Shown in pieces: positions 2,855 through 18,264 of a stretch of DNA of 18,264 nucleotides. Both the position numbers and the translations under genes were made by a program. The DNA lies in contig SABF01000010.1 of the NCBI GenBank assembly GCA_009929095.1, forward strand, positions 1-18,264, given 5' to 3'. Origin of the DNA: Erysipelotrichia bacterium. GTDB lineage: Bacteria; Bacillota_I; Bacilli_A; Erysipelotrichales; Erysipelotrichaceae. The notes beneath the pieces were generated by a model. That model was not told the DNA's origin and did no database searches. It saw only the letters and a program-made list of their open reading frames with translations. The stretch's first letter is position 1. The number at the start of each line of letters is the position of its first letter.

Positions 2855-4267
2855 TCAGAACTCTTTTTTGCCATCCGGCGTATCAATGATTACCGGTGCT
2901 TTCTTCCAATTGACAAACTGCATCCAGCACCAGAGTACGATACCGATGCCCAGATAAATCGCAAATGAAATCCAGGAACCGATTCCCTGCCCCAAGGTGC
3001 AGAAGAAGGCAACTACAATCGCTATGATCAGTGACAGATAGCGAGTGAAGTTTCCGCCTTTTAAATGATAAGTTGCCCATTCCGGATGTTTCTTATGAAT
3101 ACGAATTGCCGATATCATTGTGATTGCATAGGCACAGGCACAGCCAAACGCCATCAGATTGAAGAAATCATTCATGAACGTACCGGCATTCTGCAGAATC
3201 AGGAATATTACAGAAACTGCCAGCAGCATGATGTTTGGCAGAATCGGCTGCTGATGTTTATTCAGTTTTGCAAAGCTCGCCGGCAGAAAATTGCTCTTTC
3301 CCATGGCATACAGAAGACGCACTGTCGACAGCCAGAAACCCAGAAGACAGGTTCCGATTGCACAGAGTATTGCTGCAATGCCAAATATAATGGACCAGAT
3401 TTTCCAGCCGCCCCCAAGCTGTTCCATCATACTGATCGCAAGGAAGCCGGAAGTAGCAGCACCGCCCTGTTCAACCATTGACTGTACCGGCATTCCTCCC
3501 AGACCCAGGAAAAAGAATGCATACACAATTCCGCAGGTTATTACCGAACCCCAGATTGCTTTAGTGGAGTCCTTCAGAGGGAAGTCGCCTTCTTCAATCA
3601 TCTGAGGAACTGTTTCAAAGCCGAAGAACGGTGTAATCAGAAATGCAAGACCGATTATCCAGCCCGGAATACCTAATTGCGGTGAAGCCTGTGAATAGAA
3701 GAAGTGACTGAAGTTTGAAAGGCTCCACTGTCCGGAGAACATGAATCCAATGGAAGCCGCAATACAGCCGACAATAGCCAGAACCAGCATGACGAGCTGG
3801 ATCTTGCCGGCGATTTCAATGTTCTGCATGCTGAGGCAGAAATACCCAATCAAAGCTGCCGCCGCAATGATTTCAATCAGAGTAAAACTGGAAGTGATAT
3901 TTAAAACATGGAATATCCACTGCACAATTGCCATAACAGCAGCCGGCGGAACTGCAATCCATGCCAGCATAATCAGCCAGGCTGATAAGAATCCCATATG
4001 CTTATTCTGACCAACCGTATTGTAAATCAGTTCTCCGCCTGCTTCCGGAAACATCGGAGCCAATTCACAGTAGACAAATGCAATTGGCAGAATCATCAGA
4101 GTCATCAGCAGAAATGCAATCCATGTTCCAGGACCGCAGTATTCATAGAATATTGAATCCCAATATCCAATAAATGTGAAAATTGCTCCTGTTGCAATGG
4201 CATAAACATATATCAGTTTAAGACTTTTCTTTAAGCCCTTTGCTTCGGTATTATCTGGTTTTGACAT
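2855..4267 (-). CDS. APC-superfamily amino acid/polyamine-type permease, paralog A
   Basis: 470 residues, very hydrophobic, about 12 predicted membrane segments. The first segment carries a glycine-rich ATGAIF stretch near residues 25-30. FGFETVPQMIEEGDFP at 215-230 matches the conserved APC region around helix 6. Such carriers move amino acids or related amines/acids by proton symport or exchange; the substrate cannot be read from the sequence. The start is the ATG at 4267, preceded by AAAGGGG 7 bases upstream. The gene sits 74 bases after the stop of a paralog with the same length and near-identical motifs (4342-5751), so the two probably form one transcription unit, modulated by the weak hairpin between them. 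It is the last gene before a terminator. Confidence 0.88.
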   Translation of the reverse strand: MSKPDNTEAKGLKKSLKLIYVYAIATGAIFTFIGYWDSIFYEYCGPGTWIAFLLMTLMILPIAFVYCELAPMFPEAGGELIYNTVGQNKHMGFLSAWLIMLAWIAVPPAAVMAIVQWIFHVLNITSSFTLIEIIAAAALIGYFCLSMQNIEIAGKIQLVMLVLAIVGCIAASIGFMFSGQWSLSNFSHFFYSQASPQLGIPGWIIGLAFLITPFFGFETVPQMIEEGDFPLKDSTKAIWGSVITCGIVYAFFFLGLGGMPVQSMVEQGGAATSGFLAISMMEQLGGGWKIWSIIFGIAAILCAIGTCLLGFWLSTVRLLYAMGKSNFLPASFAKLNKHQQPILPNIMLLAVSVIFLILQNAGTFMNDFFNLMAFGCACAYAITMISAIRIHKKHPEWATYHLKGGNFTRYLSLIIAIVVAFFCTLGQGIGSWISFAIYLGIGIVLWCWMQFVNWKKAPVIIDTPDGKKEF

Positions 4268-4283
4268 TTTTTCCCCTTTAGAA

Positions 4284-4318
4284 AACTCCCCATGATTCAG
4301 ATTCAGGCACAGGGAGTT
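4284..4318 (-). terminator. Weak intercistronic hairpin between the two permeases
   Basis: AACTCCC (4284-4290) pairs with GGGAGTT (4312-4318) across a 21-base loop. On the minus strand the stem is followed by TTCTAAAGGGG, the ribosome site of the downstream permease. The U-run is short, so partial termination or mRNA processing is more likely than a full stop. Confidence 0.4.
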
Positions 4319-4341
4319 AATTTATCCAGTGTTATGAGTCT

Positions 4342-5751
4342 TTAGAACTGTTCAATTCCGTCTGGTGTTTCAATTTCAACGTTTGATTTTTTCCAGCGGA
4401 TCAGAACCATGTACAGCCAGATCAGGACACCGACTCCGAGATATACCGCAAAGGATATCCAAGAACCGATTCCCTGTCCCAATGTGCAGAAGAAAGCAAT
4501 TGTGATCATGATGCACATTGCCAGAATACGCAGAATGTTTCCGCCTTTAACTGCATTGGGACTCTTCCAGTCCGGATGCTTTGAATGAATGCGAACAGCA
4601 GAAATCATTGTCAGAGCATATGCACATGCACAGCCAAATGACATCAGATTGAAGAAGTCATTCATAAATGTTGTTGCATTCATGAGAAGCAGGAATATCA
4701 GGGAAATAGCCAGAAGGAAGCAGTTTGGAAGAATCGGCTGCTGATGTTTGTTTAGCTTTTTGAAAGCTGGCGGCAGGAAATTCTTTTCTGACATGGAATA
4801 CAGCATGCGTACGGTAGACATCCAGAAACCGAGAATGGAAGCGCCAAGGCCGAGCAGCACTGAGCAGAATCCATAGATCAGCGGCCAGATGGTCCAGCCA
4901 AGAGTACGTTCCATGTTAATGATTGTAAGGAATCCGTTTGCCGCATCACCTGCCAGCAGATTCTGGAAGGAATCCAGTCCTGCAACGCAGAAATAGAAGA
5001 ATGTGTAGATTGCTCCGCAGGTCAGTACTGAACCACAGATTGCTTTCTTGGAGTCCTTGATCGGAAAGTCTCCTTCTTCAACCATCTGCGGAACTGTCTC
5101 AAATCCAAAGTATGGAGTAATCAGAAGCGCCATGCCAATCAGCCAGCCTGGAATGCCATTTGACGCACCAATATTTGTCTGGAACATACCAGACATATTG
5201 GAAAGGCTCCAGTGCCCTGAGAATAGAATCAGAATTCCGGTTATCAGTGTGGAAACAATGTTAATGAACAGGAATGCAGCCTGAGTTTTTACCAGAGTCT
5301 TAATGTCCTGCAGACTCAGAATGAAAACCAGGACAAGAATGCATACACCAATCAGCATTGTGTTTCCAAAGGTAAGTCCCAAACCAAAGGTACGGGAAAT
5401 CCAGGTGGCAATTGCCATTACAACTGCGGGCGGAACTGCAATCCACGCAGCCATAATCAGCCAGGAAGCCAGAAAGCCAACGTGCTTATTAATTCCTACC
5501 GTGTTATAGATCAATTCGCCGCCAGTAGTATGAAACAGCGGTGCAAGTTCAGAATACACCAATGCTATTGGCAGTATTGCAATGGTCATTAATGCAAACG
5601 CCAGCCAGGTGCCAGATCCGCAATAGCCAAAGAATACGGAATCCCAGTAGCTGACCCAGGTAAAGATAGAACCTGTAGCAACTGTGTAAACAAAGACCAG
5701 CTGCAGACTTTTCTGCAGCCCTACGTTCTTTGAAGAATTCTTTTCAGACAT
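4342..5751 (-). CDS. APC-superfamily amino acid/polyamine-type permease, paralog B
   Basis: 469 residues, about 12 membrane segments. It is collinear with the neighbouring permease without large gaps: shared blocks include GELIYNTVG at 78-86, FGFETVPQMVEEGDFP at 215-230 and the C-terminal GQGIGSWISFA stretch. This points to a tandem duplication followed by divergence. Differences concentrate in the loop near residues 185-200 and in the middle helices, which may reflect different substrate choice. The start ATG at 5751 has a GGGGGGA ribosome site 4 bases upstream. A strong promoter lies at 5800-5827, so this is the first gene of the permease unit, divergent from the UcpA-like dehydrogenase. 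A shared substrate pathway with that enzyme is plausible but inferred. Confidence 0.88.
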   Translation of the reverse strand: MSEKNSSKNVGLQKSLQLVFVYTVATGSIFTWVSYWDSVFFGYCGSGTWLAFALMTIAILPIALVYSELAPLFHTTGGELIYNTVGINKHVGFLASWLIMAAWIAVPPAVVMAIATWISRTFGLGLTFGNTMLIGVCILVLVFILSLQDIKTLVKTQAAFLFINIVSTLITGILILFSGHWSLSNMSGMFQTNIGASNGIPGWLIGMALLITPYFGFETVPQMVEEGDFPIKDSKKAICGSVLTCGAIYTFFYFCVAGLDSFQNLLAGDAANGFLTIINMERTLGWTIWPLIYGFCSVLLGLGASILGFWMSTVRMLYSMSEKNFLPPAFKKLNKHQQPILPNCFLLAISLIFLLLMNATTFMNDFFNLMSFGCACAYALTMISAVRIHSKHPDWKSPNAVKGGNILRILAMCIMITIAFFCTLGQGIGSWISFAVYLGVGVLIWLYMVLIRWKKSNVEIETPDGIEQF

Positions 5752-7405: not shown

Positions 7406-8416
7406 TCAGTTTTCATTGTGTCTAGTGGAACTCATTTCATTAATGCGGCATTTCAAAATCTGGTTTGGGGGTTCCTCATCGATTCCCTCCATGCGGTCAA
7501 TCAGTATCTTTGCGGCTACTCTTCCTTCTTCATAAGCAGGCTGAACAATTGTGGTGATTGTTGGTGATACAAGTTCACTCCAGTCACAGGAGTCCATGCC
7601 GATCAGTCCCAATCGTCGAGGAATCCAAGACCGATAAGGTTCCAAGGCCAGATGAACTTTATTCAGCAGCCAGTTGCTTGACGCAAAGATGCATATATCT
7701 TCTTTCCCGTTGATATACACTTGCAGCTGTTTCTGAAGATCTTCAGGATCAGTCTGTTTCTCTGCAGTAATTACATCATAAGGTACTTTTCTGATATCCA
7801 GGTGATCTGTAAATCCGCGGCATCGTTCTTCTCTGGTGACAATCTTGGAAGGATCTGCTGTGACCAATATAAATCTATGATATCCGCGCTTCAGAAGCAA
7901 GCTTACTGCATCGTAAACAGCCTCATAGTTATTCGTCTTTACCCATAATCCTTTGGTGGAATGATTGGGAGAATCAAAATACACAAGCGGTTTGTCAATT
8001 TCCAACCCCTGCCACATTGTTTCAAAATGCGCTGTTGGCTGCACAACAAAGCCTCCCACACCCATCTCATTCATTCCGTCGATGCATCTGCGTTCGTTTT
8101 CAAGCAGATAATTGCTGGACCCAAGAATCAGCTGGTAGTTCTTTTCACGGGTATAGTCTTCCAGACCTTTCACAATATGACTGGCAAAGGGACTGGTGAT
8201 GTCTCCAATCACAACACCGATCAGATGTTTCTGATTGATGCCTCGCTGAGAAACAGTGCCCTCCAGCTGATAGTTTGTCTTAGCAATTGCCTGCTCAATT
8301 CTTTTCCGAGTATCTTCAGACATTCGGCTGAATTTGCCGTTGAGATAAAAGGAAACCGTGGCTTTTGAAACACCCGCAAGTACGGCAATATCACTAATGG
8401 TTGTCTTTCGGCTCAT
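7406..8416 (-). CDS. LacI-family transcriptional regulator
   Basis: 336 residues. The helix-turn-helix occupies residues 5-27 (TISDIAVLAGVSKATVS), followed by a sugar-binding-protein-like effector domain from about residue 65 (IGVVIGDI) to the C-terminus. The linker is odd: at the hinge helix, where most members have PNxxARxL, this protein reads LEGTVSQR, so the minor-groove contact may differ. The start ATG has GAGGAAAAA directly upstream. It lies downstream of the kinase end of the catabolic operon, on the same strand but behind a terminator and with its own promoter candidate. It is a reasonable regulator of the neighbouring operon or of the permease/SDR divergon; the effector is unknown. 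Confidence 0.92.
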   Translation of the reverse strand: MSRKTTISDIAVLAGVSKATVSFYLNGKFSRMSEDTRKRIEQAIAKTNYQLEGTVSQRGINQKHLIGVVIGDITSPFASHIVKGLEDYTREKNYQLILGSSNYLLENERRCIDGMNEMGVGGFVVQPTAHFETMWQGLEIDKPLVYFDSPNHSTKGLWVKTNNYEAVYDAVSLLLKRGYHRFILVTADPSKIVTREERCRGFTDHLDIRKVPYDVITAEKQTDPEDLQKQLQVYINGKEDICIFASSNWLLNKVHLALEPYRSWIPRRLGLIGMDSCDWSELVSPTITTIVQPAYEEGRVAAKILIDRMEGIDEEPPNQILKCRINEMSSTRHNEN

Positions 8417-8666: not shown

Positions 8667-8700
8667 AAAAAAAACGCCATATTCTGCTGTGAATATGACG
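8667..8700 (-). terminator. Rho-independent terminator of the catabolic operon
   Basis: CGCCATATTC (8675-8684) pairs with GAATATGACG (8691-8700), 10 positions with one mismatch, 6-base loop. On the minus strand it is followed by eight T. It lies 18 bases beyond the kinase stop codon. Confidence 0.88.
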
Positions 8701-8717
8701 TGATATGAATTGATTCT

Positions 8718-10133
8718 CTACCTATCTATACTGCCTCGATGTTCCAGCTTTTCTATTATTTTCTTCAAAGTATCGGGAGCCCCGACATTTCCCGGGAATA
8801 TCACATACAGCATGCCCGGATACTTTGCTCTGTCACCCAGCTGCCATACAGAGATTCCAGGTTCAATCTGCCCTTTGACCAGTACTCGACTGTCATTCAG
8901 CAGCATTTCACCTAGTTGACAGGAAGTGATTCCGCCCTTGCCTATAACATACGCAGGAGATGACGTGATTGCATACACAGATGAGAGAAATGCCTCTGAT
9001 ATCCGAGCAGTCAGCGTCAGCTGTTCTTTTTCATCTGCACCCGGCAGGTCTATCCGGCAGCGGTCTGTCATGAAGCAAACCGTCTTTCCCCGGCTGAGTG
9101 CCATATCAATTGTTTCCGTGCATCGCTTCATTTCCTGTTCTGCTGATGCTGCATTTTCGTCCAGCAATACTGACTGATGAAAGGTGACTGTTTCACAAAG
9201 GGGTGAAATTTCGTTTAGCTGCCGAGCAGTTTTTTTAACGTGTGAACCAGCCACAATCAGTCCGCCACATGTATGTTCAGAAGCACTTTCAAACTGTGTG
9301 TGACCAATCAAGTCAGCGAATGGCTGTTTCATCCAGAATCTGAGCAATGAAGAAGCACCGCGATAAATCTGATTCTTCCCGTTTCCGCATGCTGTAATAT
9401 ACTGCAGTGCAAAGAATGACAGCTGCTCATAATCCGTTGCGCTGACTATCACATACTGATCTGCCCGTGAGGTCATCAGTTTTGTAAGAACTGAATCTGA
9501 TTCCTGTTTCAATTCCTCTTCTTCAATGTAGACAAACCGGGAAGCAGGTATCTTTTCACTGCGCTTTTCTCTGATATAATCATCAAGCTTTGATGCGCTG
9601 AACGAGAAGGACTGATCTTCTGCGAATTCGGTTTCTCCAACCGGTATCCATTCATCTCGTGTAACTGCATAGTGCACATGTCCTCTGGTCAGTCTTCCGC
9701 CTTCCACAAAACAGGGGCAGATGACTTCTGCACCTGTTTCAATATCTGCTTCCTTCATCTGTTTCAGTATCGCATCCATCTCACATGGATAATTCCAGCG
9801 CAAAGTTGAATCACTGCGTGAAAGGATTCTGAATTCTCTGCTCTGTTTCTCTGATTCCGCAATAATTTTCTGCAGAAGAGATTCATGAAGAGCTGTCGAT
9901 TCTTCTTTTTGCAATGCTCGGGAATTGGTCAGTATAAATGCCATACTGTGATCAGAATCATCGAACATCTGATGAATCTCCGCATTGCTCCATTTTGTAT
10001 AAACATATACGTCATTGCAGCACTGTGTTCCAGTCGGATCGTCATCCAAAACAATATACAGGATATGCTGTTTGCATAGTTCCTGACGAATTCGCTCTGT
10101 ATTGTGCATGATAGATATATTAAGTGCCTTCAT
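8718..10133 (-). CDS. Four-carbon acid sugar kinase-like protein (DUF1537 family)
   Basis: 471 residues from the chosen start. The N-terminal VLDDDPTGTQ (residues 29-37) is the substrate-binding signature of DUF1537 kinases. The C-terminal GKGGITS, KGQIEPGISVW and IFPGNVG segments match the nucleotide-binding domain. Characterised relatives phosphorylate D-threonate, L-threonate, D-erythronate or 3-oxotetronates with ATP. The usual partner genes (class II AraD-like decarboxylase, PdxA-type dehydrogenase) are not in this window, so the substrate may differ. The start at 10133 is one base after the stop of the small membrane-protein gene (TGA-G-ATG) and gives the usual 28 or so residues before DDDPTG; the frame stays open to 10190 but would then overlap that gene. 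Last gene of the operon. Confidence 0.85.
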   Translation of the reverse strand: MKALNISIMHNTERIRQELCKQHILYIVLDDDPTGTQCCNDVYVYTKWSNAEIHQMFDDSDHSMAFILTNSRALQKEESTALHESLLQKIIAESEKQSREFRILSRSDSTLRWNYPCEMDAILKQMKEADIETGAEVICPCFVEGGRLTRGHVHYAVTRDEWIPVGETEFAEDQSFSFSASKLDDYIREKRSEKIPASRFVYIEEEELKQESDSVLTKLMTSRADQYVIVSATDYEQLSFFALQYITACGNGKNQIYRGASSLLRFWMKQPFADLIGHTQFESASEHTCGGLIVAGSHVKKTARQLNEISPLCETVTFHQSVLLDENAASAEQEMKRCTETIDMALSRGKTVCFMTDRCRIDLPGADEKEQLTLTARISEAFLSSVYAITSSPAYVIGKGGITSCQLGEMLLNDSRVLVKGQIEPGISVWQLGDRAKYPGMLYVIFPGNVGAPDTLKKIIEKLEHRGSIDR

Positions 10134-10134
10134 C

Positions 10135-10329
10135 TCAGAAATTAATGAATCCAGCGATAATGACATCAGTGATGCAGATGGCATAGCCAAGATATCTCAT
10201 CTGGTTTTCCCGTTTACTCCATTGATTGTCAGGATCTGTTTCCTGACGTTTGGCAAAATGCAGCTTTGCATACAGCAGGCATCCCATTCCTGCAATCAGC
10301 AGGATGATCATCACAATCATTCTCGCCAT
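10135..10329 (-). CDS. Small membrane protein, 64 residues, within the catabolic operon
   Basis: Two hydrophobic segments (about residues 4-22 and 49-63) flank a charged, polar middle (KRQETDPDNQWSKRENQ), so a two-helix hairpin membrane protein is expected. I do not recognise a family. The ATG at 10329 has a strong site, AGAGGAGAA, 7 bases upstream. A TTG at 10335 would also be in frame but is less likely. The frame starts 2 bases after the stop of the racemase-like gene and ends 1 base before the kinase start, so it is tightly packed in the operon and probably translated. It could assist transport or anchor an enzyme; that is speculation. Confidence 0.72.
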   Translation of the reverse strand: MARMIVMIILLIAGMGCLLYAKLHFAKRQETDPDNQWSKRENQMRYLGYAICITDVIIAGFINF

Positions 10330-10331
10330 AT

Positions 10332-11003
10332 TCAATTCTCCTCTTCTTCAAGCATTGCCCGTACTCGTTCTACCGCAAGGCGTGGGGAAGTCAGCACCGG
10401 CTTCTCCATCCGATCAAGACACGGCAGAATTGCTGTCATTGAACCCTGTGCAAGAACTATCACATCACACTCCTGCTGAGCCTTCTCTATCTGCTGCTTA
10501 ACCAGCTGGTTATGTTTCTCGACATTGTGTTCCTTCATCAAAATATCAAGTGCACCATCCACAAGATATTTTTTTACTTCAACTTCCTTATTTGTTTCTC
10601 TTGCTTTTTCGACAATCAGACTGCAGGATGGCTTCATCGTGCTGGCAACGGTTGCCACGACACCTATCGTCCTGCCAAGCTTAACTGCTTCTTCCGCCAT
10701 CGGTTCATCAATGCGAAGTGTCTTGCATTCAACCTGCTTCCGGGCAATGTCAAACGCTGCGCCGACCGAGCTGCATTGATTGAAAATCAGAACCGGATTC
10801 ATGCTTTCAGCGACTGATACATAGGTGCACATACGGCGGATGACAGCCGGTGTCAATCCACAATTTGACTTCACATCTTCCAGAAGGCTGTCATCAATAA
10901 TATTAACCATTTCAACTTCCGGAATTATTTCTCGAAATAAATCCTTCAGATCATTGAGTGATACCGGACTGGTATGAATCAGAACCACTTTCTTTTTTGT
11001 CAT
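10332..11003 (-). CDS. Aspartate/glutamate (hydantoin) racemase-like protein
   Basis: 223 residues. The fold signature fits the Asp/Glu/hydantoin racemase superfamily: VVLIHTSP at the N-terminus, FNQCSS with Cys77 as the first catalytic Cys, IGVVATVAST near 113-122, and VIVLAQGSM at 181-189. The second catalytic Cys, expected where this last motif has Gln186, is missing. Proton transfer by two Cys is therefore unlikely; such one-Cys members can be isomerases, decarboxylases or hydrolases. The start ATG lies one base after the dehydrogenase stop (TAA-T-ATG) with AGAGG upstream. Its location between a dehydrogenase and a sugar-acid kinase suggests a role on a small hydroxy- or keto-acid rather than on an amino acid. 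The exact reaction is unknown. Confidence 0.78.
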   Translation of the reverse strand: MTKKKVVLIHTSPVSLNDLKDLFREIIPEVEMVNIIDDSLLEDVKSNCGLTPAVIRRMCTYVSVAESMNPVLIFNQCSSVGAAFDIARKQVECKTLRIDEPMAEEAVKLGRTIGVVATVASTMKPSCSLIVEKARETNKEVEVKKYLVDGALDILMKEHNVEKHNQLVKQQIEKAQQECDVIVLAQGSMTAILPCLDRMEKPVLTSPRLAVERVRAMLEEEEN

Positions 11004-11004
11004 A

Positions 11005-12075
11005 TTATGCCTCTTCTATTCTATATGCTTCCAGCTGCTTCATTGCTTTATATATCCTGTCTGCTGTAACCGGGTAAGGGACATGTTCCAGTTCCTGATT
11101 TTCTTCTGCTGTTTTAAGTATATCGGAAAGATCAGAGTTAACATCCAGATCCAGGTCAGATAGTTTTACCGGCAGCTGAATTGCTTTGTTAAATGTATAT
11201 GCCTGTTTCAGCATCTCTTTCTGATCGTCCATCATCAGCTGTACCAGAGTTCCATAAGACACCACTTCTCCATGAAGATGATCTCGTTCAATTGAAGGTC
11301 TGACTGTCAATCCATAAAACAATGCATGCGCAAGAGCACTGTTATATTTTGAAGAAACGGACACTGATACCGAACCGGTTGAGATCACAATATTCTGTAT
11401 TGCCTTCTCCAATGCCGGTGTAACTTCATGTGTCGTTGCATCCTCATAGGCTTGTGCACCATATTCCAGCATGCCATAAAAACACAAATCGCCAATTTTA
11501 ATACCCAGTTCACTCGGAAAATCCAGTTCATCTCCTCTGGCGGAGAAGGCTGACTCAACATGTTTAGCCATGGTATCACCGATCCCTGCCCATAGATATT
11601 TAACAGGCGCTTCGGAAATAATCTCCGTGTCTATGTAGCAGTGTTCCGGCGGCTGTTTCAGCTGAGTGATTTCCCGGAAGGAATGATCCTCATGGTACAT
11701 GATGGATATGCGTGTGACAGCCGCACATGTTGACGCAATGGAAGCACAGGTATATACCGGCTTATTCATTTTGCAACCTGCATACTTAACTGTATCGATG
11801 CACTTACCTCCGCCCAAAGCAATCAGACAGTCAGCTTCCTGTGCACCTGCACTGGCAATAATCATTTCAGCATTCTCAATAGTTGCCTCATGACCATAGA
11901 CCCCCTGATCAAGGATACGTATCCCAGCACTCTTCAATGCAGCAAGTACTTTTCTCTCCGAGGCTTCCCAAGCATGCTGACCATAGTACAGCGCACATGT
12001 ATGATACGGAATCTCACAGAACGCATCAAAAGCATCGATGCCAATTGTATATCTTGGTAGAAACACTGAATACAT
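11005..12075 (-). CDS. GldA-like iron/zinc-dependent dehydrogenase
   Basis: 356 residues. Seen: NAD-binding GGGK at 88-91, and the metal ligands expected of glycerol dehydrogenases: Asp167 in GIGDTMAK, His250 in ALAHALFYGL, and His268 in HLHGEVVSYG. GldA oxidises glycerol to dihydroxyacetone; relatives act on other polyols and hydroxyketones or on glycerol 1-phosphate. I chose the ATG at 12075 (MYSVFLPRY) over an upstream in-frame start at 12126 because AGAAGGGA lies 6 bases before it and the protein then has the family's normal N-terminus. The gene is preceded by a GC-rich hairpin at 12095-12120. In this operon it probably reduces or oxidises the aldehyde or ketose product of the aldolase step; this is inferred. 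Confidence 0.87.
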   Translation of the reverse strand: MYSVFLPRYTIGIDAFDAFCEIPYHTCALYYGQHAWEASERKVLAALKSAGIRILDQGVYGHEATIENAEMIIASAGAQEADCLIALGGGKCIDTVKYAGCKMNKPVYTCASIASTCAAVTRISIMYHEDHSFREITQLKQPPEHCYIDTEIISEAPVKYLWAGIGDTMAKHVESAFSARGDELDFPSELGIKIGDLCFYGMLEYGAQAYEDATTHEVTPALEKAIQNIVISTGSVSVSVSSKYNSALAHALFYGLTVRPSIERDHLHGEVVSYGTLVQLMMDDQKEMLKQAYTFNKAIQLPVKLSDLDLDVNSDLSDILKTAEENQELEHVPYPVTADRIYKAMKQLEAYRIEEA

Positions 12076-12094
12076 GACTGTCCCTTCTTTCTGT

Positions 12095-12120
12095 ATAAGG
12101 CCGGGTTTCCCCGGCCTTAT
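12095..12120 (-). promoter_or_regulatory. GC-rich intercistronic hairpin before the dehydrogenase
   Basis: ATAAGGCCGGG (12095-12105) and CCCGGCCTTAT (12110-12120) are perfect 11-bp arms with a 4-base loop. No U-run follows on the minus strand (ACAGAAAG), so it is not a standard terminator. It probably protects or processes the mRNA between isomerase and dehydrogenase genes. Confidence 0.7.
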
Positions 12121-12132
12121 CATCAATATTCA

Positions 12133-12774
12133 CTACTTCGCATCTGCAATGCTTTTGACATATGCCTCAATCTCAGCATCTTTGCAGTTTGCATAAAAGC
12201 ATTCCAGGAACCGCGGAGTCAGACTCTTTTTTACAATTTCTTCATCCATCGCTTTCAGTCCTTCCAGCAGTGGTTTGCAAGTTTCTGATTTCACTTTGAA
12301 AAGTGTTGCCGCATTGCGGTTCTGTGATTCTCTCCGATCAGCCGGATATCCCATGCCTTTGGGAGAGCCGAAGGCTTTCTCAAACATCGTATGAATATTA
12401 AGCTCTGCGCCCCAGCCAAATCCCTTAGCAAACGGTATTGACAGTGCATTTCCATCGTTAATCTGGAGGAATAGGTAAGCATCCGTCGGTTCAATGCAGT
12501 AGCCGCATACAACGCCCGGGAAGCTGTTAAGCGCCATCAGCGCACCCTGACCAGTACCACAGCCTGCGATTACAAAATCTGCAGCTTTTGAGTTAATGAG
12601 AAGTGCTGCCTGGACGCCAAGATTCAGATAGGTCAGATAACAAGGATCATCATCCCCGGTCATTCCCGTGTTGTAGACCGTGTGTCCCATCGGCTCCACA
12701 ACATCTTTCAACTGCGCTAAGACAATTGGATTTTTGGAAGCCTGGCTGAACTCATTCATCAATGCAATATTCAT
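12133..12774 (-). CDS. RpiB/LacA/LacB-family sugar-phosphate isomerase
   Basis: 213 residues. The family signature is clear: AGCGTGQGALMALN (residues 70-83) with the catalytic-base Cys72, and NDGNALSIP at 107-114. Members interconvert aldose and ketose phosphates, such as ribose/ribulose 5-phosphate, galactose/tagatose 6-phosphate or erythrulose phosphates. The protein is about 60 residues longer than plain RpiB; the extra C-terminal part from about residue 150 (PADRRES to the end) is helical. Similar extended members exist, as I recall, with an RpiB C-terminal domain. The ATG has AAGGAG 10 bases upstream. It lies 91 bases after the aldolase and 57 bases before the dehydrogenase, each gap holding a hairpin. 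Confidence 0.87.
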   Translation of the reverse strand: MNIALMNEFSQASKNPIVLAQLKDVVEPMGHTVYNTGMTGDDDPCYLTYLNLGVQAALLINSKAADFVIAGCGTGQGALMALNSFPGVVCGYCIEPTDAYLFLQINDGNALSIPFAKGFGWGAELNIHTMFEKAFGSPKGMGYPADRRESQNRNAATLFKVKSETCKPLLEGLKAMDEEIVKKSLTPRFLECFYANCKDAEIEAYVKSIADAK

Positions 12775-12822
12775 CAGTGTATTCTCCTTATATTCACTGT
12801 TTCATTTTCATAGCAAGAAGGG

Positions 12823-12851
12823 GGGAAGAGATTCTCGCAGTACCTCTTCCC
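12823..12851 (-). promoter_or_regulatory. Intercistronic hairpin between aldolase and isomerase genes
   Basis: GGGAAGAG (12823-12830) pairs perfectly with CTCTTCCC (12844-12851) around a 13-base loop, 14 bases past the aldolase stop. On the minus strand it is followed by CCCTTCTTGC, not a proper U-run, so partial attenuation or RNA processing is likelier than termination. Confidence 0.5.
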
Positions 12852-12865
12852 TCATACAGGTATAC

Positions 12866-13750
12866 TTATTCCTTACTGGTATTGACCGTTTCACCGTATC
12901 CGTAAGCATTCTTGGACCCGATAATCTGGATGTAGTCTTTTACAAACTGCTTGATCGCTGCTTCAGCAATAACCATGATGTCAAGATAGTTTGTGCCTGG
13001 GGCCTCTGCCCACTTTGCCTTCATGGCATTCTCTGCCGCATGGAAAGCATCCGTGCAGACATTGATCTTATTAATACCGCCAGCGACTGCCTTGCGAATA
13101 TTCTCTTCGCCGGATCCTGAACCGCCGTGAAGAACCAATGGCATTTTCAGCTCTGCCTTAAGTTCTGCCAGACGATTGAAATCAAGTACCGGCTTCATTC
13201 CTTTAGGATAATCTCCATGGGCAGTTCCGATAGCCACAGCCAGTGCATCGATTCCCGTGCGGTCGACATAGTCTCTCGCCTGTGCAACATTGGTATAAAG
13301 ATCGACCTGACTGTTGTCACCGGCATCTGCCTGACCAACATGTCCCAGTTCACCTTCAACACAGATCCCTTTGGCATGAGCCAAGGCAGAAATCTGAGCA
13401 ACACGCCTGATGTTTTCCTCATAAGGAAGAGAGGACGCATCGATCATGACAGAAGAGAAGCCATAGCGCATCGCCGCAGTCTCATCTTCAAACTTGGAAC
13501 CATGATCCAGATTCAGAGCAACTGGTACATTCACTTTTTCAGCCAATTCCTTGATCATTGGAACCATCTCTGTCGGATGAGCAAGTTTTGCCATCTGACC
13601 AACACCGATATTGACAATAATCGGTGAGTTCTCTTCGGCAGCTGCTGTTATTACAGCACGTGCCATTTCCATGTTGACGCTGTTGACTGCCATGACAGCA
13701 TAGTTATGTGCATTGGCATGAGTCAGAATGTCTTTCATTGAAACATACAT
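12866..13750 (-). CDS. Class II fructose-bisphosphate aldolase-family enzyme (ketose phosphate aldolase)
   Basis: 294 residues. Zn-dependent aldolase features: NLDHGS at 80-85 (catalytic Asp82, Zn ligand His83), VEGELGHVG at 131-139, Zn ligand His178 in GTAHGDY, Zn ligand His208 in LHGGSGSG, and the phosphate-binding NKINVCTD near 227-234. The family includes fructose-bisphosphate, tagatose-bisphosphate and related aldolases releasing dihydroxyacetone phosphate. In a PTS operon a tagatose- or ketose-phosphate substrate is more likely than the glycolytic one. The ATG at 13750 has AGAAGGACA upstream; Met5 is a less likely start. It follows the IIC gene by 35 bases and is part of the same transcript. 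Confidence 0.9.
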   Translation of the reverse strand: MYVSMKDILTHANAHNYAVMAVNSVNMEMARAVITAAAEENSPIIVNIGVGQMAKLAHPTEMVPMIKELAEKVNVPVALNLDHGSKFEDETAAMRYGFSSVMIDASSLPYEENIRRVAQISALAHAKGICVEGELGHVGQADAGDNSQVDLYTNVAQARDYVDRTGIDALAVAIGTAHGDYPKGMKPVLDFNRLAELKAELKMPLVLHGGSGSGEENIRKAVAGGINKINVCTDAFHAAENAMKAKWAEAPGTNYLDIMVIAEAAIKQFVKDYIQIIGSKNAYGYGETVNTSKE

Positions 13751-13785
13751 ATTGAATATGTCCTTCTCTCTATTTGTTGAATGAA

Positions 13786-14913
13786 TTATTTGATATCAAT
13801 GTCGAGTTCTTCAGAAATTTCTTCTTCTTTAGATTCTTCTTCAGATACCGGTTTCTTGAGGAATGCATACATCACGGCAGTGACGATAGATCCGACCGCA
13901 AGAGCAATCAGGAAGAAATGCCAGTTGGTTGTTACCGGGACAATGAAGATACCGCCATGCGCTGCCGGTGTATGGCAGCCAAGAGCCATAACCATTCCGG
14001 CTGCTACTGCTGAACCGACCATGGAGGAAGGAATGACTCTGAGCGGATCATCAGCCGCAAATGGCAGAACGCCCTCAGTGATAAAGCAGAGACCCATTGG
14101 AATGCAGGAGATGCCAGCATCACGCTGTTCACGTGTGAACTTCTTTGGAGCAATCAGAGTTGCGATACCAATTCCGAGAGGAGGAGTCATACCGCCAATA
14201 ATCTTTGCAGATTCTGCAGCAGAGCCAATTCCTTCAGGATCATCCGCAAACAGTGCGTTAGCTGCCATGGATGCGGTTTTGTTAATCGGGCCGCCCATAT
14301 CGAAGCCCATGCAGGCACCGATAACAGCTCCAATGATGGAGAGAGAGCCAGAAGAAAGTGACTGAATCCAAGCCTGTATGGAGCTCATTGCGAGTGCCAT
14401 CGGCTTGCATACGATCCAGAAGAACAGTGCACCGCCAATTAATGTTGCAAGCACCGGTATAATCATGACTGGCATCAGACCCTGAAGTGCCTTTGGCATC
14501 TTCCAGCCTTCCATCCATTTCACGATGAAGCCAATAACGAACGCCATTAACATGGCTCCAATGAAGCCGGCCTTTGCAGCATTTGCTGTATAGCCAATAA
14601 TGAATCCCGGAACAATACCCGGACGATCTGCCATGGAATAAGCAATGCCGGCAGCGAGAACTGCACATGCAAAACTCATTGCATAGTCAGAAAGTTTGGA
14701 AATTGCCCACCAGAACTGTGTCCAGCTAAATGCATTCAGATTCGAGAAGATGGTTGCTGCACCTTCTGCACTAGGACCCATACTGCCAATTGTGTATCCG
14801 CCAAGTCCTTTAGCCAGAGCGCCTAGAATGCCGCCGGCCACGACCATGGGGATCATGTAGGAAATACCTGTCATCATGTGTTTCTTGAATGAAGCTCCTG
14901 TACCTTTTGCCAT
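13786..14913 (-). CDS. PTS fructose-type permease, IIC component
   Basis: 375 residues, about nine membrane segments. Fructose-family IIC signatures include GISYMIPMVVAGGI near residues 16-29, DMGGPINKTA at 205-214 and MTPPLGIGIATL at 242-253. It forms the sugar channel and works with IIB (15267-14953) and the IIA encoded at 16132. The C-terminal tail is strongly acidic (SEEESKEEEISEELDIDIK), and its last residues resemble the tail of the IIA protein (see findings). The ATG at 14913 has AAAGGGAAA upstream. Fructose-type IIs typically deliver a 1-phosphorylated ketose, which would suit the aldolase encoded next. Confidence 0.92.
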   Translation of the reverse strand: MAKGTGASFKKHMMTGISYMIPMVVAGGILGALAKGLGGYTIGSMGPSAEGAATIFSNLNAFSWTQFWWAISKLSDYAMSFACAVLAAGIAYSMADRPGIVPGFIIGYTANAAKAGFIGAMLMAFVIGFIVKWMEGWKMPKALQGLMPVMIIPVLATLIGGALFFWIVCKPMALAMSSIQAWIQSLSSGSLSIIGAVIGACMGFDMGGPINKTASMAANALFADDPEGIGSAAESAKIIGGMTPPLGIGIATLIAPKKFTREQRDAGISCIPMGLCFITEGVLPFAADDPLRVIPSSMVGSAVAAGMVMALGCHTPAAHGGIFIVPVTTNWHFFLIALAVGSIVTAVMYAFLKKPVSEEESKEEEISEELDIDIK

Positions 14914-14952
14914 AATTTCCCTTTCTTATAAACCTTTCCCTTTCTGTTTCTG

Positions 14953-15267
14953 CTACTTCAGATTCAGTTTCTTCTGAATGGTAGCGATGAGACTCTTCGG
15001 ACTTTTCATTGCAATGCTGATCGGAATATCAACGACATGTTTGTCTTTGAAGCGTTCCATTCCGCCGACCTGGATATCGTGGGCAAGGACGACAACGTCT
15101 GCATCTTTGATCTCCTGATCTGTCAGCTTGTTCTGAACACCAATTGTTCCCTGCGTTTCGATCTTGCATTCATGACCTGCTTCCTTTGCGGCAGTCTGTA
15201 TCTTCTCCGCAACGATGTAGGTGTGAGCAATCCCGGCAGTGCAGGCGGTAACTCCGACAATCTTCAT
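14953..15267 (-). CDS. PTS fructose-type IIB component
   Basis: 104 residues from the ATG at 15267, chosen because AAAAGGAGGTG stands 5 bases upstream; the frame extends to 15285 without a better start. The phosphocysteine is Cys9 in VTACTAGIAHT; relatives usually read ACPTGIAHT, so the loop residues after Cys differ here. The C-terminal half (VVVLAHDIQVGG, then a basic helix) fits the small fructose IIB fold. It accepts phosphate from IIA and passes it to the sugar in IIC. It is the first gene of the catabolic operon, with an 815-base noncoding region upstream. Confidence 0.92.
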   Translation of the reverse strand: MKIVGVTACTAGIAHTYIVAEKIQTAAKEAGHECKIETQGTIGVQNKLTDQEIKDADVVVLAHDIQVGGMERFKDKHVVDIPISIAMKSPKSLIATIQKKLNLK

Positions 15268-15379
15268 AGTGCACCTCCTTTTCACTGAATCTTCTGCTGC
15301 TAACGATAGATTAGCATTTCATAGTTTCTATAGAATTTATTATCTGTCAGACTATTACGGTAATACTTTGCTTATTTAT

Positions 15380-15394
15380 GTTAATATTGTTAAC
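15380..15394. promoter_or_regulatory. Palindrome GTTAA-TATTG-TTAAC upstream of the PTS operon
   Basis: Perfect 5-bp arms over 15 bases, 113 bases before the IIB start. It is in the position of an operator or activator site in the leader or promoter of the catabolic operon. Confidence 0.4.
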
Positions 15395-15413
15395 CTTTCA
15401 GGCAGAATATCTA

Positions 15414-15423
15414 AAACCGGTTT
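15414..15423. promoter_or_regulatory. Candidate LacI-family operator AAACCGGTTT
   Basis: A perfect 10-bp palindrome with the central CCGG that many LacI-family operators share. It lies upstream of IIB, and the window encodes one LacI regulator (7406-8416). The regulator's unusual hinge makes the link tentative. Confidence 0.4.
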
Positions 15424-15465
15424 GCATAAATGAATTGGTTTGAGCGCAATTATATATTGCCTGAT

Positions 15466-15493
15466 AATATAAGCCTACAGAGTATAATAACAA
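15466..15493 (-). promoter_or_regulatory. Weak candidate promoter for the catabolic operon
   Basis: On the minus strand: TTGTTA (15488-15493), 16-base spacer, TATATT (15466-15471). The leader would be about 190 bases and include both palindromes above. Other AT-rich matches nearby are possible. Confidence 0.3.
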
Positions 15494-16082
15494 TCAATAT
15501 ACTTTCCATTAAGTAAACCGCGTAATTTCAAACAAATGTTTTTTAGTCGAAATCAAAGTCCGTTAATGAGTACATTCTGCAGGAAATGCTATCTGACTCC
15601 GTTATGCCTGGGTGCTATGGTTTATGCCGATAATATAAATACGCTTTCCCTGCAATAGAGAATTATGTTTCTATCTGAACATTCTCTGTATTATCGTAAG
15701 CATGATTTCTGTCTCCATAACATATTTCCTGATACTGCGCAGACGGATTGCAGATCAAAACAGTTAACAGCACAGAATACGTACACCTCCATAAATTCGC
15801 CTGACGTATATTTCTTTTTGGCTCTGAGCTTCAGATATCTGTACGTACTATGTTCAATTGAATAGGAGATCATATTTCATCAGACTGTCATTCCTTCATT
15901 GAATGCAAAATGATATCTTGCCATTTTCAGCTGCGCGGAGCATATTGTTTTACGGCGATCAAAATTGAAGCATCTATTGTAGTTCGTTGTATTTGCGCTG
16001 TATATTTCTGCTAGATAGAAATGTCGCATCTCTGCTAATGATTCAACAAACAAATCCCTTTCTTACCTGGATATTTGACGAT

Positions 16083-16124
16083 AAAAAAAGAACCTGAAGC
16101 GGAATAATTCGCCTCAAGTTCTTT
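16083..16124 (-). terminator. Strong terminator after the IIA gene
   Basis: Arms 16087-16101 and 16110-16124 pair over 15 positions (13 Watson-Crick, two off positions that can wobble in one orientation) with an 8-base loop, followed on the minus strand by a T7 run. It separates the regulator/IIA unit from the IIB-to-kinase operon. Confidence 0.88.
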
Positions 16125-16131
16125 ATTCTAT

Positions 16132-16662
16132 TCAAACATTAATATCGAGATCTACAATTTCTTCTTCACTGTCTGCAGGACCTTCGAGTACACTGTCATC
16201 GCAGACAATAGTACTGATAATTTCTTCTGCATCTGTACAGGTTTTTAGTTTTTGAATCCGTGCATCGTTGCCGAGTTTGCCTGCCAGCTGACTCAGCAGA
16301 ATCATATGGTTCTCTGCAAAAGACTGATCCGCACTGACGCAGAATAGAAAGATCATTTCTGTGTCCTGAAAGCCTGACGGATCTATGCTTGATTCCCACT
16401 TAATTGGATTGATCGTCCTGCCGATTGCAATTCCTATCTTCTTAGCGGCAGCAGATTTACCATGAGGGATGGAGAGAGAACTGCCCATTCCTGTAGGACC
16501 CTCTTTTTCCCGGTCATAGATATCCGCCACAAACTGATCAACATCATCAATATAGCCGTTATTTAACAGCAGTCTGCTGAGACTGCGCAGAACTTCGTCT
16601 TTGTCTGTACCGTTTACTTGTAAACTAATAATGCTTGGATCAAGTATTTCTTTTAATTCCAT
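16132..16662 (-). CDS. PTS fructose/mannitol-type IIA component
   Basis: 176 residues. The EIIA type 2 fold is shown by the phosphohistidine His67 in LSIPHGKS, GPTGMGSSL just before it, and FLFCVSADQS plus HMILLSQLAGKL further on. It carries phosphate from HPr to the separate IIB. Most free-standing IIA proteins of this type are about 150 residues; here an acidic extension (SEEEIVDLDINV) ends the protein and resembles the IIC tail. The ATG at 16662 has AAAAGGAGAA upstream. It lies 21 bases after the regulator stop and is cotranscribed with it, but is separated from IIB/IIC by a strong terminator and 815 noncoding bases. Confidence 0.92.
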   Translation of the reverse strand: MELKEILDPSIISLQVNGTDKDEVLRSLSRLLLNNGYIDDVDQFVADIYDREKEGPTGMGSSLSIPHGKSAAAKKIGIAIGRTINPIKWESSIDPSGFQDTEMIFLFCVSADQSFAENHMILLSQLAGKLGNDARIQKLKTCTDAEEIISTIVCDDSVLEGPADSEEEIVDLDINV

Positions 16663-16683: not shown

Positions 16684-18264
16684 TTATTGGACAAGATAGT
16701 AATAAAGATCTATTTCATTTTTGAACCGGCATATCCGATCCACGTTTTCCTGAGATTCTGTCAGCTTTATGAATTGCCGATAGAATTCCTGCCACTTAGC
16801 CAATTCGTTTTCGTTCTTCATAAGAATATTTAACAGCAAAACAACTCTTACCTTTTCAGTGCCCCAGTCGATTGGTTCATCAAGTGTCGCAATAACCAGC
16901 TTTGATTCGTTAGTATACTTCATCTGCCCATGAGGAATTGCTACGCCCAGACCGATGGAGGTTGTAGACTTTTCTTCTCTGTCCAGCACCGTTGAACAAT
17001 ACTGAGATGCTGCGTATCCCTTCGATGTCAGTTTGAGGCACATCTCATTCAGCAGCTTTGTCTTATCGGTATAATGCACCTGAGTCATCATGAGTTCCGG
17101 CTCAAACAGAGAATGGCAGATTGGATCAAAGTGGAAAGGCTTCATCAGATCATTTCTGCGGATTACGCTGATATGTTCTCTGATCAAGTCATAATTACTG
17201 TCAGCGAACGGATCCGGAAGCAGAACAATGTGTTTATCTTTGCTTTCAAGCGATGCAGTCGATAAGATCAGATCTGCATCTGTTGAAGATAAACTGCTGA
17301 ACTCATGCACAGACAAAATGTCACATCTGCCAAGATCCGAGATATGATGCATCAGCTTATCCGTAACCATCTGAGAGATACTCATACTCAGATTGGAAAC
17401 AAGGATTGCCTTCAAAGGACGACTGCTGCGATCAAGCGCGCTTTGAATATACAGAGCAATATAACTGAGTTCATTGTCCGAGATCGTCACGCGGAAATAC
17501 TCTTCAAATAATGTGGAGATCAGCCAGGATACTCTCAGTGTGGAAATATATTTTTCACGCATATAGATATTTGCCGTTCCATCTGCCGGCATGCCATACC
17601 TAAGTCTGAACAGAAGAGGTCTGATATGATTGATCAGTCCTCGGTACAGACTGTCATCATGGGTCAGATCTACATTCATGACTTCAGATACCACTGAAAT
17701 TGTCTTTCTGACAAACTCCTGCAGTTTTTCATCATATTCCTTTACCATCTGCTGAGGATTATCAGTCTTGTTATCAATCACCTGAGAACAAAGTATCTGA
17801 ACGGTTAGAAAACCAACTTCTTCAGGACGTTCCAGCAAGCCAAGATGATCATTGAGCTGTTGGTACAATGCTTTGGAGAAATGATATTCTGTGCTCTGTC
17901 CAACAGCCCTTCCCACATCTGTGTATTTCATGCTCAGGCACTTCTGCCCCTGCAGATTTTCATATAATGCGATCGAAATATATACGAGAATATCGGTGTA
18001 AGAATGATCCGTGAAGTTGAAATTCCACTGCTTTTCCACATCCAAAAGAATTTTCTCGATCGCATCAATATTTAATCCAGGCAAAAAATACACCAGATCT
18101 TCTCCAGGCTTTTTATCTGAATCCACTGACACAATAAATTCTTTCAGTGCCTGTCGATAATCCTCTTCGGAAAACTGCACAGTCAGTCCTTTTCGTCTGA
18201 CTGATTTTAAAGAGATGCTGAACGCTTTCAGCCACTCTGCACAATCCTGTATTACTTTCTGGGC
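16684..18264 (-). CDS. BglG/LicR/MtlR-type PTS regulator with PRD and EIIA domains (partial, N-terminus off the right edge)
   Basis: 526 codons visible. The frame is open through 18264; the GTG at 18180 is internal, since the upstream residues (EWLKAFSISLKSVRRKGLTV) look like the end of the DNA-binding region. Numbered from the window edge: PRD1 with His87 (TDHSYTDIL), PRD2 with His213 (LINHIRPLL), an EIIB-like domain near 285-365, and EIIA with His445 (VAIPHGQ). The second His of each PRD reads Gln and Tyr, and the EIIB-like domain lacks its Cys (LVSNLSMS). Such proteins are DNA-binding activators whose activity is set by PTS phosphorylation. It probably controls the catabolic operon from sites in 15268-16082. 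Confidence 0.88.
   Translation of the reverse strand, partial: AQKVIQDCAEWLKAFSISLKSVRRKGLTVQFSEEDYRQALKEFIVSVDSDKKPGEDLVYFLPGLNIDAIEKILLDVEKQWNFNFTDHSYTDILVYISIALYENLQGQKCLSMKYTDVGRAVGQSTEYHFSKALYQQLNDHLGLLERPEEVGFLTVQILCSQVIDNKTDNPQQMVKEYDEKLQEFVRKTISVVSEVMNVDLTHDDSLYRGLINHIRPLLFRLRYGMPADGTANIYMREKYISTLRVSWLISTLFEEYFRVTISDNELSYIALYIQSALDRSSRPLKAILVSNLSMSISQMVTDKLMHHISDLGRCDILSVHEFSSLSSTDADLILSTASLESKDKHIVLLPDPFADSNYDLIREHISVIRRNDLMKPFHFDPICHSLFEPELMMTQVHYTDKTKLLNEMCLKLTSKGYAASQYCSTVLDREEKSTTSIGLGVAIPHGQMKYTNESKLVIATLDEPIDWGTEKVRVVLLLNILMKNENELAKWQEFYRQFIKLTESQENVDRICRFKNEIDLYYYLVQ

Follow-up and report, generated by a model that had tools for sequence, protein, structure and literature searches.

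A phosphotransferase and aldolase operon in an Erysipelotrichaceae contig

The window analyzed here is one whole contig of 18,264 bp (SABF01000010.1) from a 2.14 Mb assembly of an Erysipelotrichia bacterium (GCA_009929095.1, estimated completeness 74.6%), whose close relatives are Erysipelotrichaceae/Solobacterium metagenome-assembled genomes (MAGs), several of them of sheep, goat, cattle, or buffalo gut origin. Its minus strand carries, in order, a PRD/EIIA-type regulator, the IIA component of a phosphotransferase system (PTS), a terminator, a gap of 864 bp, and then genes for IIB, IIC, a class II aldolase, an RpiB-family isomerase, a GldA-like dehydrogenase, an Asp/Glu racemase-fold protein, a 66-amino-acid (aa) membrane protein (mem66), and a DUF1537 kinase, followed by a second terminator. 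The eight genes from IIB to DUF1537, predicted earlier from the sequence as one catabolic operon, are all present in a single orientation and are separated by 39, 35, 91, 57, 1, −4, and 1 bp; probable starts, judged from translations, lie at 15267 for IIB, 12075 for the GldA-like dehydrogenase, and 10133 for DUF1537. The boundaries also agree with the original prediction of a terminator and a long regulatory region: a predicted intrinsic terminator (8674–8701) closes the operon, and another, at 16087–16124, lies with the 864 bp on the side toward IIA. The IIA and regulator genes, which that prediction left out, are nevertheless part of the system. This is a real operon, largely restricted to its family, and the search turned up neither a named pathway with its gene set, as predicted, nor a published description in the open-licence literature searched.

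All three PTS components belong to the fructose family: IIA (176 aa; 16132–16662) scores 105.7 bits against TIGR00848 (cut-off 103.5), IIB (104 aa; 14953–15267) 98.5 bits against TIGR00829 (cut-off 76.85), and IIC (375 aa; 13786–14913) 274 bits against TIGR01427 (cut-off 157.55). The regulator (16684–18264), cut by the contig end, combines PRD content with a C-terminal EIIA(Fru) domain and matches the fruA, GlcT, and LicT models, all under cut-off. Downstream of IIA, the terminator at 16087–16124 comprises 15 pairs and a T-tail, and the adjoining gene-free stretch (15268–16086) is presumed to contain the promoter and regulatory region of the IIB operon; the IIA–IIB region holds 25 promoter-like sites against 20.7 (standard deviation 4.8) in shuffles of the same region, which is no excess.

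Catalytic features of the aldolase, isomerase, and dehydrogenase

The aldolase (294 aa; 12866–13750; PF01116, 294.5 bits) keeps Asp82, His83, His178, His208, and Asn230, which are invariant in an alignment with E. coli YdjI, GatY, and KbaY and which we take to be the catalytic and metal residues of class II aldolases. The Lys of the GatY/KbaY TELK motif, presumably the basic residue for the distal phosphate of bisphosphate substrates, is replaced by Phe (TDAF) in the window aldolase and by Cys in YdjI; the Phe recurs in 36 of the 37 aldolase loci described below. Because this Lys is lost, the enzyme fits a substrate with one phosphate, such as a ketose 1-phosphate. PTS import of such a ketose and its aldol cleavage to dihydroxyacetone phosphate (DHAP) and an aldehyde, as originally predicted, are plausible with the catalytic residues kept and the TELK Lys gone, the chemistry itself being deduced. 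The E. coli ydjH–ydjI locus likewise encodes a class II aldolase lacking the TELK Lys, YdjI, which is annotated as an octuluronate 1-phosphate aldolase; the two aldolases share 36% identity, however, and the ydj locus has a kinase in place of a PTS and no DUF1537.

The isomerase (213 aa; 12133–12774) falls, as the predicted "RpiB-like" label implied, in the RpiB/LacA/LacB family, but it is a DhuI-type member and not RpiB proper. It scores 312 bits against PRK09273 (cut-off 137), carries LacAB_rpiB and DUF3666 Pfam domains that are both above cut-off, and has DhuI (gbs1892, PDB 4u8e) as one of its four near solved relatives, whereas RpiB models match under cut-off (TIGR01120, 26 against 139 bits; PRK05571, 37 against 135 bits). 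A ribose-5-phosphate isomerase was ruled out by these family scores (at most 37 bits against the RpiB models listed), which group the protein with DhuI, a uronate isomerase. Published work describes DhuI (RpiB/LacA/LacB family) and KduI (KduI/IolB family) as non-homologous enzymes of the same uronate isomerization (PMC12838403), assigns KduI a part in galacturonate and glucuronate breakdown (PMC3578941), and also covers the DhuI-type uronate isomerase and the gene names of the tetronate pathway (PMC6837340, PMC10580937). Both isomerase families, DhuI-type and KduI/IolB-type, occur among the loci of relatives, a likeness to DhuI/KduI uronate isomerase-reductase clusters. Genome G453 contains a second DhuI-like gene, beside gluconate-5-dehydrogenase-, 2-keto-3-deoxygluconate (KDG)-kinase-, and Eda-like genes; this copy, in a 4-deoxy-L-threo-5-hexosulose-uronate (DHU)-type context, differs from the PTS-linked RpiB-like proteins in standing apart from them in a tree, on a long branch of unsure placement.

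The GldA-like, polyol-type dehydrogenase (11005–12075, with an ATG start) scores 203 bits against PRK09423, under the cut-off of 336, and its Asp/His/His positions, which are presumably metal-binding, are conserved when it is aligned with 1kq3. A GC-rich hairpin with a perfect stem of 9 bp and a loop of GAAA lies between the isomerase and dehydrogenase genes (12097–12118); it lacks a T-run and may act in mRNA processing or stability.

Conservation and gene order among relatives

A profile search (E ≤ 1e-95) found the aldolase orthologue in 37 of 272 family genomes, the window's included, and in 12 of 59 genera. It is rare outside the family, being present in 3 of 395 genomes of an evenly drawn class sample and 4 of 392 of a phylum sample (E ≤ 1e-105; the window's genome is in both). 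The counts over 37 loci that follow take one locus per genome, with L014, L015, L020, and L021, which repeat contigs of G750, G751, G667, and G684, counted once; the fetched stretches reach 1 to 16 kb either side of the aldolase, and tblastn rows were dropped at <30% query cover or E > 1e-6. Genes were named by BLAST to representatives that had been named by hmmscan, several of which lie below curated cut-offs.

The order IIB–IIC–aldolase is found in 35 of the 37 loci, and it extends through the isomerase in 26, the GldA-like dehydrogenase in 24, the racemase-like gene in 19, and DUF1537 in 14, so that the gene order of the original prediction does recur in full, shorter orders being commoner. 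These counts ignore interposed mem66, UxaC, GND5, and MATE genes, and several contigs stop inside the cluster. A PTS IIA gene accompanies 33 loci and a PRD-like gene 13, window counted. Of the 37 genomes, 28 have DUF1537 genes; in 20 of those the gene is no more than 20 kb from the aldolase, and the fetched stretch contains it in 16 loci.

Variants were also seen. In L087 (4739–5945) and L088, OMPdecase/HUMPS-family and SIS-domain genes follow GldA and mem66 in place of the racemase-like and DUF1537 genes, giving another tail, of hexulose-phosphate-type enzymes. A protein of ~210 aa with a hydrophobic N-terminus and no Pfam family is encoded at L036:11213–11845 and similarly in 15 of the 37 loci; its homologues are mostly distant (25–43% identity) and often adjoin a pair of iron-containing alcohol dehydrogenase (Fe-ADH) and transaldolase genes.

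Linkage to hexuronate genes

The original prediction presented the operon as standing alone, and this was not borne out: in some relatives it is interwoven with hexuronate clusters, and its isomerase is of the DhuI family. Genes of the uxaA/B/C or uxuA/B type occur in 12 of the 37 loci, a count that rises to 20 when an IolB-like isomerase (14 loci) or an IolC-like kinase (5 loci), each at ≥40% identity, is accepted as well. Split transketolase genes are found in 7 loci, transaldolase-like genes in 20, and Fe-ADH genes in 24, the last two together in 17. A genome-wide search found UxuA in 31 of the 37 genomes, 11 of which have it no farther than 20 kb from the aldolase, where ~0.63 would be expected at random; the Poisson figure for this comparison overstates the independent evidence because the linked genomes fall within four genera and the linkage counts take no account of kinship.

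Genome G664 offers the fullest arrangement, one same-strand run of 22 genes with gaps of ≤149 bp. Its first half comprises DeoR, IolC, IIA, IIB, IIC, the aldolase (FBA), RpiB, UxaB, UxaA, an auxin-efflux-type transporter, and UxaC, and its second half Eda, KDG kinase, gluconate 5-dehydrogenase, GldA, the racemase-like gene, DUF1537, UxuA, UxuB, TktN, TktC, and an IolB-like gene; since all stand in one run, the operon genes are here part of a full hexuronate cluster. Genome G710 also has PTS, FBA, RpiB, GldA, UxuA, and UxuB genes, at L097. Among the representatives behind the gene names, UxaC (652 bits), UxuA (485 bits), tagaturonate reductase (548 against a cut-off of 359), gluconate 5-dehydrogenase (491 against 369), 2-keto-3-deoxy-6-phosphogluconate (KDPG) aldolase (283 against 241), and IolC (379 and 335 against 300) are above cut-off. 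The hexuronate linkage in relatives is the new element of this analysis, and it narrows the candidate substrates to a handful.

A proposed route for hexuronates or keto-aldonates

We propose that the operon serves an Erysipelotrichaceae hexuronate (keto-aldonate) catabolic system as its PTS-and-aldolase arm, and we put the probability of the whole scheme at roughly 0.4; that the substrate belongs to the class of hexuronates or keto-aldonates is, taken by itself, probable. The proposal builds on the gene content and order, the terminator-like sites, the family memberships, the conservation, the linkage in relatives, and the altered aldolase residue. From these we infer the substrate, all of the reactions and their sequence, and a working of the window copy like that of the linked copies.

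A fructose-type PTS would import a keto-hexuronate or 5-keto-aldonate and phosphorylate the CH2OH beside its keto group, or some relatives could use an IolC-like kinase to phosphorylate the substrate inside the cell; either could do so because fructuronate, tagaturonate, and 5-ketogluconate bear a CH2OH next to a ketone, like fructose. The aldolase, lacking a distal phosphate site, would then cleave the ketose 1-phosphate to DHAP and tartronate semialdehyde, which GldA-like or Fe-ADH dehydrogenases would reduce to glycerate, leaving an ordinary glycerate kinase to deliver this to glycolysis. Overall, such a route would resemble glycolysis and be an analogue of sulfoglycolysis. In a side branch, the DhuI-type isomerase, the racemase-fold protein, and DUF1537 may turn an acid aldehyde (C4 from transketolase, or C3) into an oxo-acid and phosphorylate it: if transketolase took the same ketohexuronate, a C4 acid aldehyde would remain, whose aldose-ketose isomer would be 3-oxo-tetronate, a known kind of DUF1537 kinase substrate.

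Gut microbes feed to a large extent on the uronic acids of pectin, hemicellulose, and glycosaminoglycans, and the place of the conserved gene set among uronate-degradation genes in some relatives hints at an undescribed way in which gut bacteria use them. If the scheme is true, a direct split of uronates to DHAP would alter predicted energy and redox yields; functions would follow for several families with poor annotation, among them a small membrane protein, a DUF1537 clade, and a racemase-fold family with one cysteine; and the presence of split transketolase, transaldolase-like, and DHAP-aldolase genes beside uronate genes would be explained. The genomic linkage makes the uronate route directly testable with a few purified proteins.

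The last step of the route calls for a glycerate kinase, and one of two families of this enzyme (PF02595 or PF13660) is encoded in 32 of the 37 genomes, PF02595 in 8 and PF13660 adding 24 more. The original prediction had the DUF1537 kinase process the aldol product, which would be a putative role. DUF1537 as the sole glycerate kinase of carrier genomes was dropped as a candidate, PF13660 filling the gap in the 24 genomes beyond the 8 with PF02595. Ignoring kinship, PF13660 is found in 25 of the 37 aldolase genomes compared to 56 of 235 family genomes without an aldolase profile match, and in G048, whose locus among the 37 is closest in sequence to the window, a PF13660 kinase lies ~1 kb from UxuA and UxuB (L106).

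Several findings beyond the confinement of the UxuA linkage to four genera weigh against the proposed hexuronate arm. The two uronate markers sought in the window's genome (74.6% complete), UxuA and KduI/IolB-family genes, were not found; uxa/uxu genes stand beside the aldolase in none of the six loci of the window's genus, of which four have an IolB-like gene; and UxuA lies on other contigs than the aldolase in G048, G007, G043, and G055. Some representatives fall below cut-off and are named by family only: UxaA-like (294 against 731 bits, as galactarate dehydratase), KDG-kinase-like (252 against 440), UxuB-like (165 against 603 as fructuronate reductase and 169 against 600 as arabinitol dehydrogenase), transaldolase-like (113 against 367), and IolB-like (88 and 96 against 205). 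The PF13660 distribution tracks genera closely, and neither glycerate kinase family was found in G000 (the window's genome), G638, G630, G736, or G755, the last four of which are 93–99% complete. Finally, 16 of the 37 fetched stretches have no racemase-like gene and 21 have no DUF1537 (some contigs end early), and these two genes are therefore not needed for the core.

Part of this evidence suits a neutral-ketose operon, in which the PTS would import sorbose, tagatose, or psicose as the 1-phosphate, the aldolase would release DHAP and glyceraldehyde, GldA would reduce the latter to glycerol, and the uronate genes of relatives would be merely co-located. The fructose-family IIC, an aldolase resembling ketose 1-phosphate enzymes, a GldA-like protein whose best score is as glycerol dehydrogenase, and the lack of both uronate markers sought in the window's own genome all speak for it; it leaves no role, however, for the DhuI-type isomerase, the DUF1537 acid-sugar kinase, or the racemase-fold protein, and the UxuA linkage is repeated in four genera. 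On balance we regard a neutral ketose as doubtful.

Comparison with known pathways

The hexuronate arm proposed here was set against the established routes that it resembles. In the hexuronate (Ashwell) pathway (UxaABC/UxuAB–KdgK–Eda), reduction and dehydration lead to KDG, and pyruvate and glyceraldehyde 3-phosphate are produced. The operon shares loci with this pathway, including the one gene run of G664, and the same keto-hexuronate intermediates are proposed for it; it differs in that a DHAP-yielding aldolase is proposed and in that the window holds no Uxa/Uxu genes. The lower inositol pathway (IolB–IolC–IolJ) passes from a uronate isomerase through a kinase to a class II aldolase that forms DHAP and a C3 semialdehyde acid, and the proposed route follows the same logic, with IolC-like and IolB-like genes present in relatives. 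The IolB-like proteins score 88 and 96 against 205 bits, however, and a PTS here would replace or supplement the kinase; the lower inositol pathway proper was ruled out, the IolB-like scores being below half of the cut-off.

Sulfoglycolysis supplies a third comparison. It runs through transaldolase (sulfo-TAL) or transketolase (sulfo-TK) variants, with a sulfo-Embden–Meyerhof–Parnas (sulfo-EMP) route as a further form, and in the first two an acid-tailed ketohexose is split by transaldolase or a split transketolase and the acid aldehyde is reduced or oxidized. Here a carboxylate is proposed for the sulfonate, uronate genes are linked, and a PTS is present. Because transaldolase-like genes accompany 20 and Fe-ADH genes 24 of the 37 loci, the relatives resemble the bifurcated transketolase/transaldolase sulfoglycolysis described in a study of gut Faecalicatena (PMC11659671). 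True sulfoglycolysis, with sulfoquinovose broken down by transketolase, transaldolase, and aldolase and a sulfonate as the acid, would account for the split transketolase, transaldolase-like, isomerase, and alcohol/aldehyde dehydrogenase genes that lie together in relatives as they do in Faecalicatena; it is nonetheless very improbable, given hexuronate genes in the same clusters, a likely importer named in passages of that study as SftA and not a PTS (PMC11659671), and no GH31 (glycoside hydrolase family 31)-type protein among the proteins scanned, the genomes not having been searched for GH31.

An extended form of the hexuronate proposal, which we hold to be rather unlikely, would be a carboxylate counterpart of sulfoglycolysis in which keto-hexuronates are dismantled by several C–C cleavages at once, parallel to or replacing the Ashwell pathway. 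A PTS- or IolC-primed DHAP aldolase would work there together with transaldolase and split transketolase, and the DhuI-type isomerase would convert the C4 acid aldehyde from transketolase to 3-oxo-tetronate, whose stereochemistry the one-cysteine racemase-fold protein would adjust and which DUF1537 would phosphorylate toward DHAP.

The racemase-fold protein, mem66, and the DUF1537 kinase

The racemase-fold protein (223 aa; 10332–11003) has the fold of the Asp/Glu racemase superfamily, as its predicted description as racemase-like suggested, but aligned with a MurI-like protein it retains one of the two Cys positions only (Cys77), Gln186 replacing the second. A two-base amino-acid racemase was ruled out, as the second Cys position is Gln in all 16 aligned family rows. 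The maleate isomerase 2xed ranks 50 in its fold list; no decarboxylase of the racemase superfamily is in that list, which excludes nothing.

The small membrane protein mem66 (66 aa; 10135–10335) has two hydrophobic stretches and no Pfam family, and homologues occur in 24 of the 37 aldolase loci, two of them weak. Of the 24 genes, seven, the window's among them, run in the same direction as the aldolase and 17 are on the other strand; 15 of the 17 flipped genes stand between GldA and the racemase-like gene (for example L018:7543–7767, minus strand), an odd placement for a tight operon.

The DUF1537 kinase (471 aa; 8718–10133) contains SBD_N and NBD_C domains (PF07005, 137 bits, cut-off 25; PF17042, 81 bits, cut-off 28.3), and the DUF1537 model matches eight PDB DUF1537 chains, including 5dmh, 4xgj, 3dqq, 1yzy, 4xfr, and 4xg0. 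Among named kinase models (D-threonate, 3-oxo-tetronate, 3-oxo-isoapionate), it matched only NF047819, at 45 against 450 bits. The usual partners of such kinases are missing, as had been predicted: the operon proteins scanned include no AraD- or PdxA-type domain, nor one of OtnC or OtnI type. The racemase-like protein as a stand-in for OtnI was not upheld; a weak YgbM-like match (E 0.001) adjoins the tetronate-type genes of L107. Known tetronate pathways with DUF1537 kinases follow LtnD/DenD–OtnK–OtnC–OtnI or DtnK–PdxA2, and the operon shares with them the kinase domains, motifs, and fold; it differs in having no PdxA, OtnC, or OtnI partner and a kinase far below the sole named NCBIfam kinase matched.

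Pairings of racemase-like and DUF1537 genes also occur away from the PTS. The two are adjacent on other contigs in G663 (L122) and G734 (L125), share a contig with the PTS genes, ~22 kb away from them, in two Holdemania genomes (L019, L024), and lie ~10 kb from the aldolase in G735 (L124). In an actinobacterial MAG (L027:6862–10109), a RuBisCO-like OiaX-type gene (394 bits, cut-off 700) sits between a racemase-like gene and an OiaK-type DUF1537 gene (260 against 700 bits), the row being preceded by GH2 and weak GH127-like genes; this may be an apionate/isoapionate-like pathway with an extra racemase-fold enzyme. In three Nonomuraea loci the racemase-like gene follows a LacD-like aldolase (L029) or a LacD-like aldolase and a xylulokinase-like FGGY kinase (L030, L031), all below cut-offs. 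Such pairings outside PTS loci tie the racemase-like/DUF1537 pair to sugar-acid or sugar chemistry and not to the PTS. Separately, the tetronate-type cluster at L107:8724–18010 (G710), with a glycerate kinase gene and YgbJ-, racemase-, YgbL-, and YgbK-like genes, also includes a protein of the racemase fold.

These observations bear on a reading in which a tetronate branch is the main function: the racemase-like protein and DUF1537 would break down 3-oxo-tetronate or one of its stereoisomers, a C4 acid sugar, as otn/den genes do, with the PTS and aldolase as auxiliaries. The separate pairs in L122, L125, L019, and L024, the actinobacterial row with OiaX-like and OiaK-like genes, and the G710 locus would all suit it. 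We nevertheless judge it improbable, since DUF1537 lies in the fetched stretch of 16 of the 37 loci and, of the 28 genomes having it, 20 place it no more than 20 kb from the aldolase, the operon has no YgbJ- or YgbL-type domain, and the kinase scores a tenth of the D-threonate kinase cut-off.

Neighboring genes

No tRNA genes and no matches to Rfam families were found in the window. The window's own genome has a second, YgbK-like DUF1537 gene, adjoining an Fe-ADH-like gene (G000:C478:1699–2961, L038). Elsewhere in the window, two tandem amino-acid permease genes of near-equal length (470 and 469 aa) occupy 2855–5751 on the minus strand. A gene for a LacI-type regulator comes after DUF1537 both in the window (7406–8416) and in the nearest relative locus (L032:6947–7960), and because it follows DUF1537 in both it may be in the regulon, despite the terminator that lies between them in the window.

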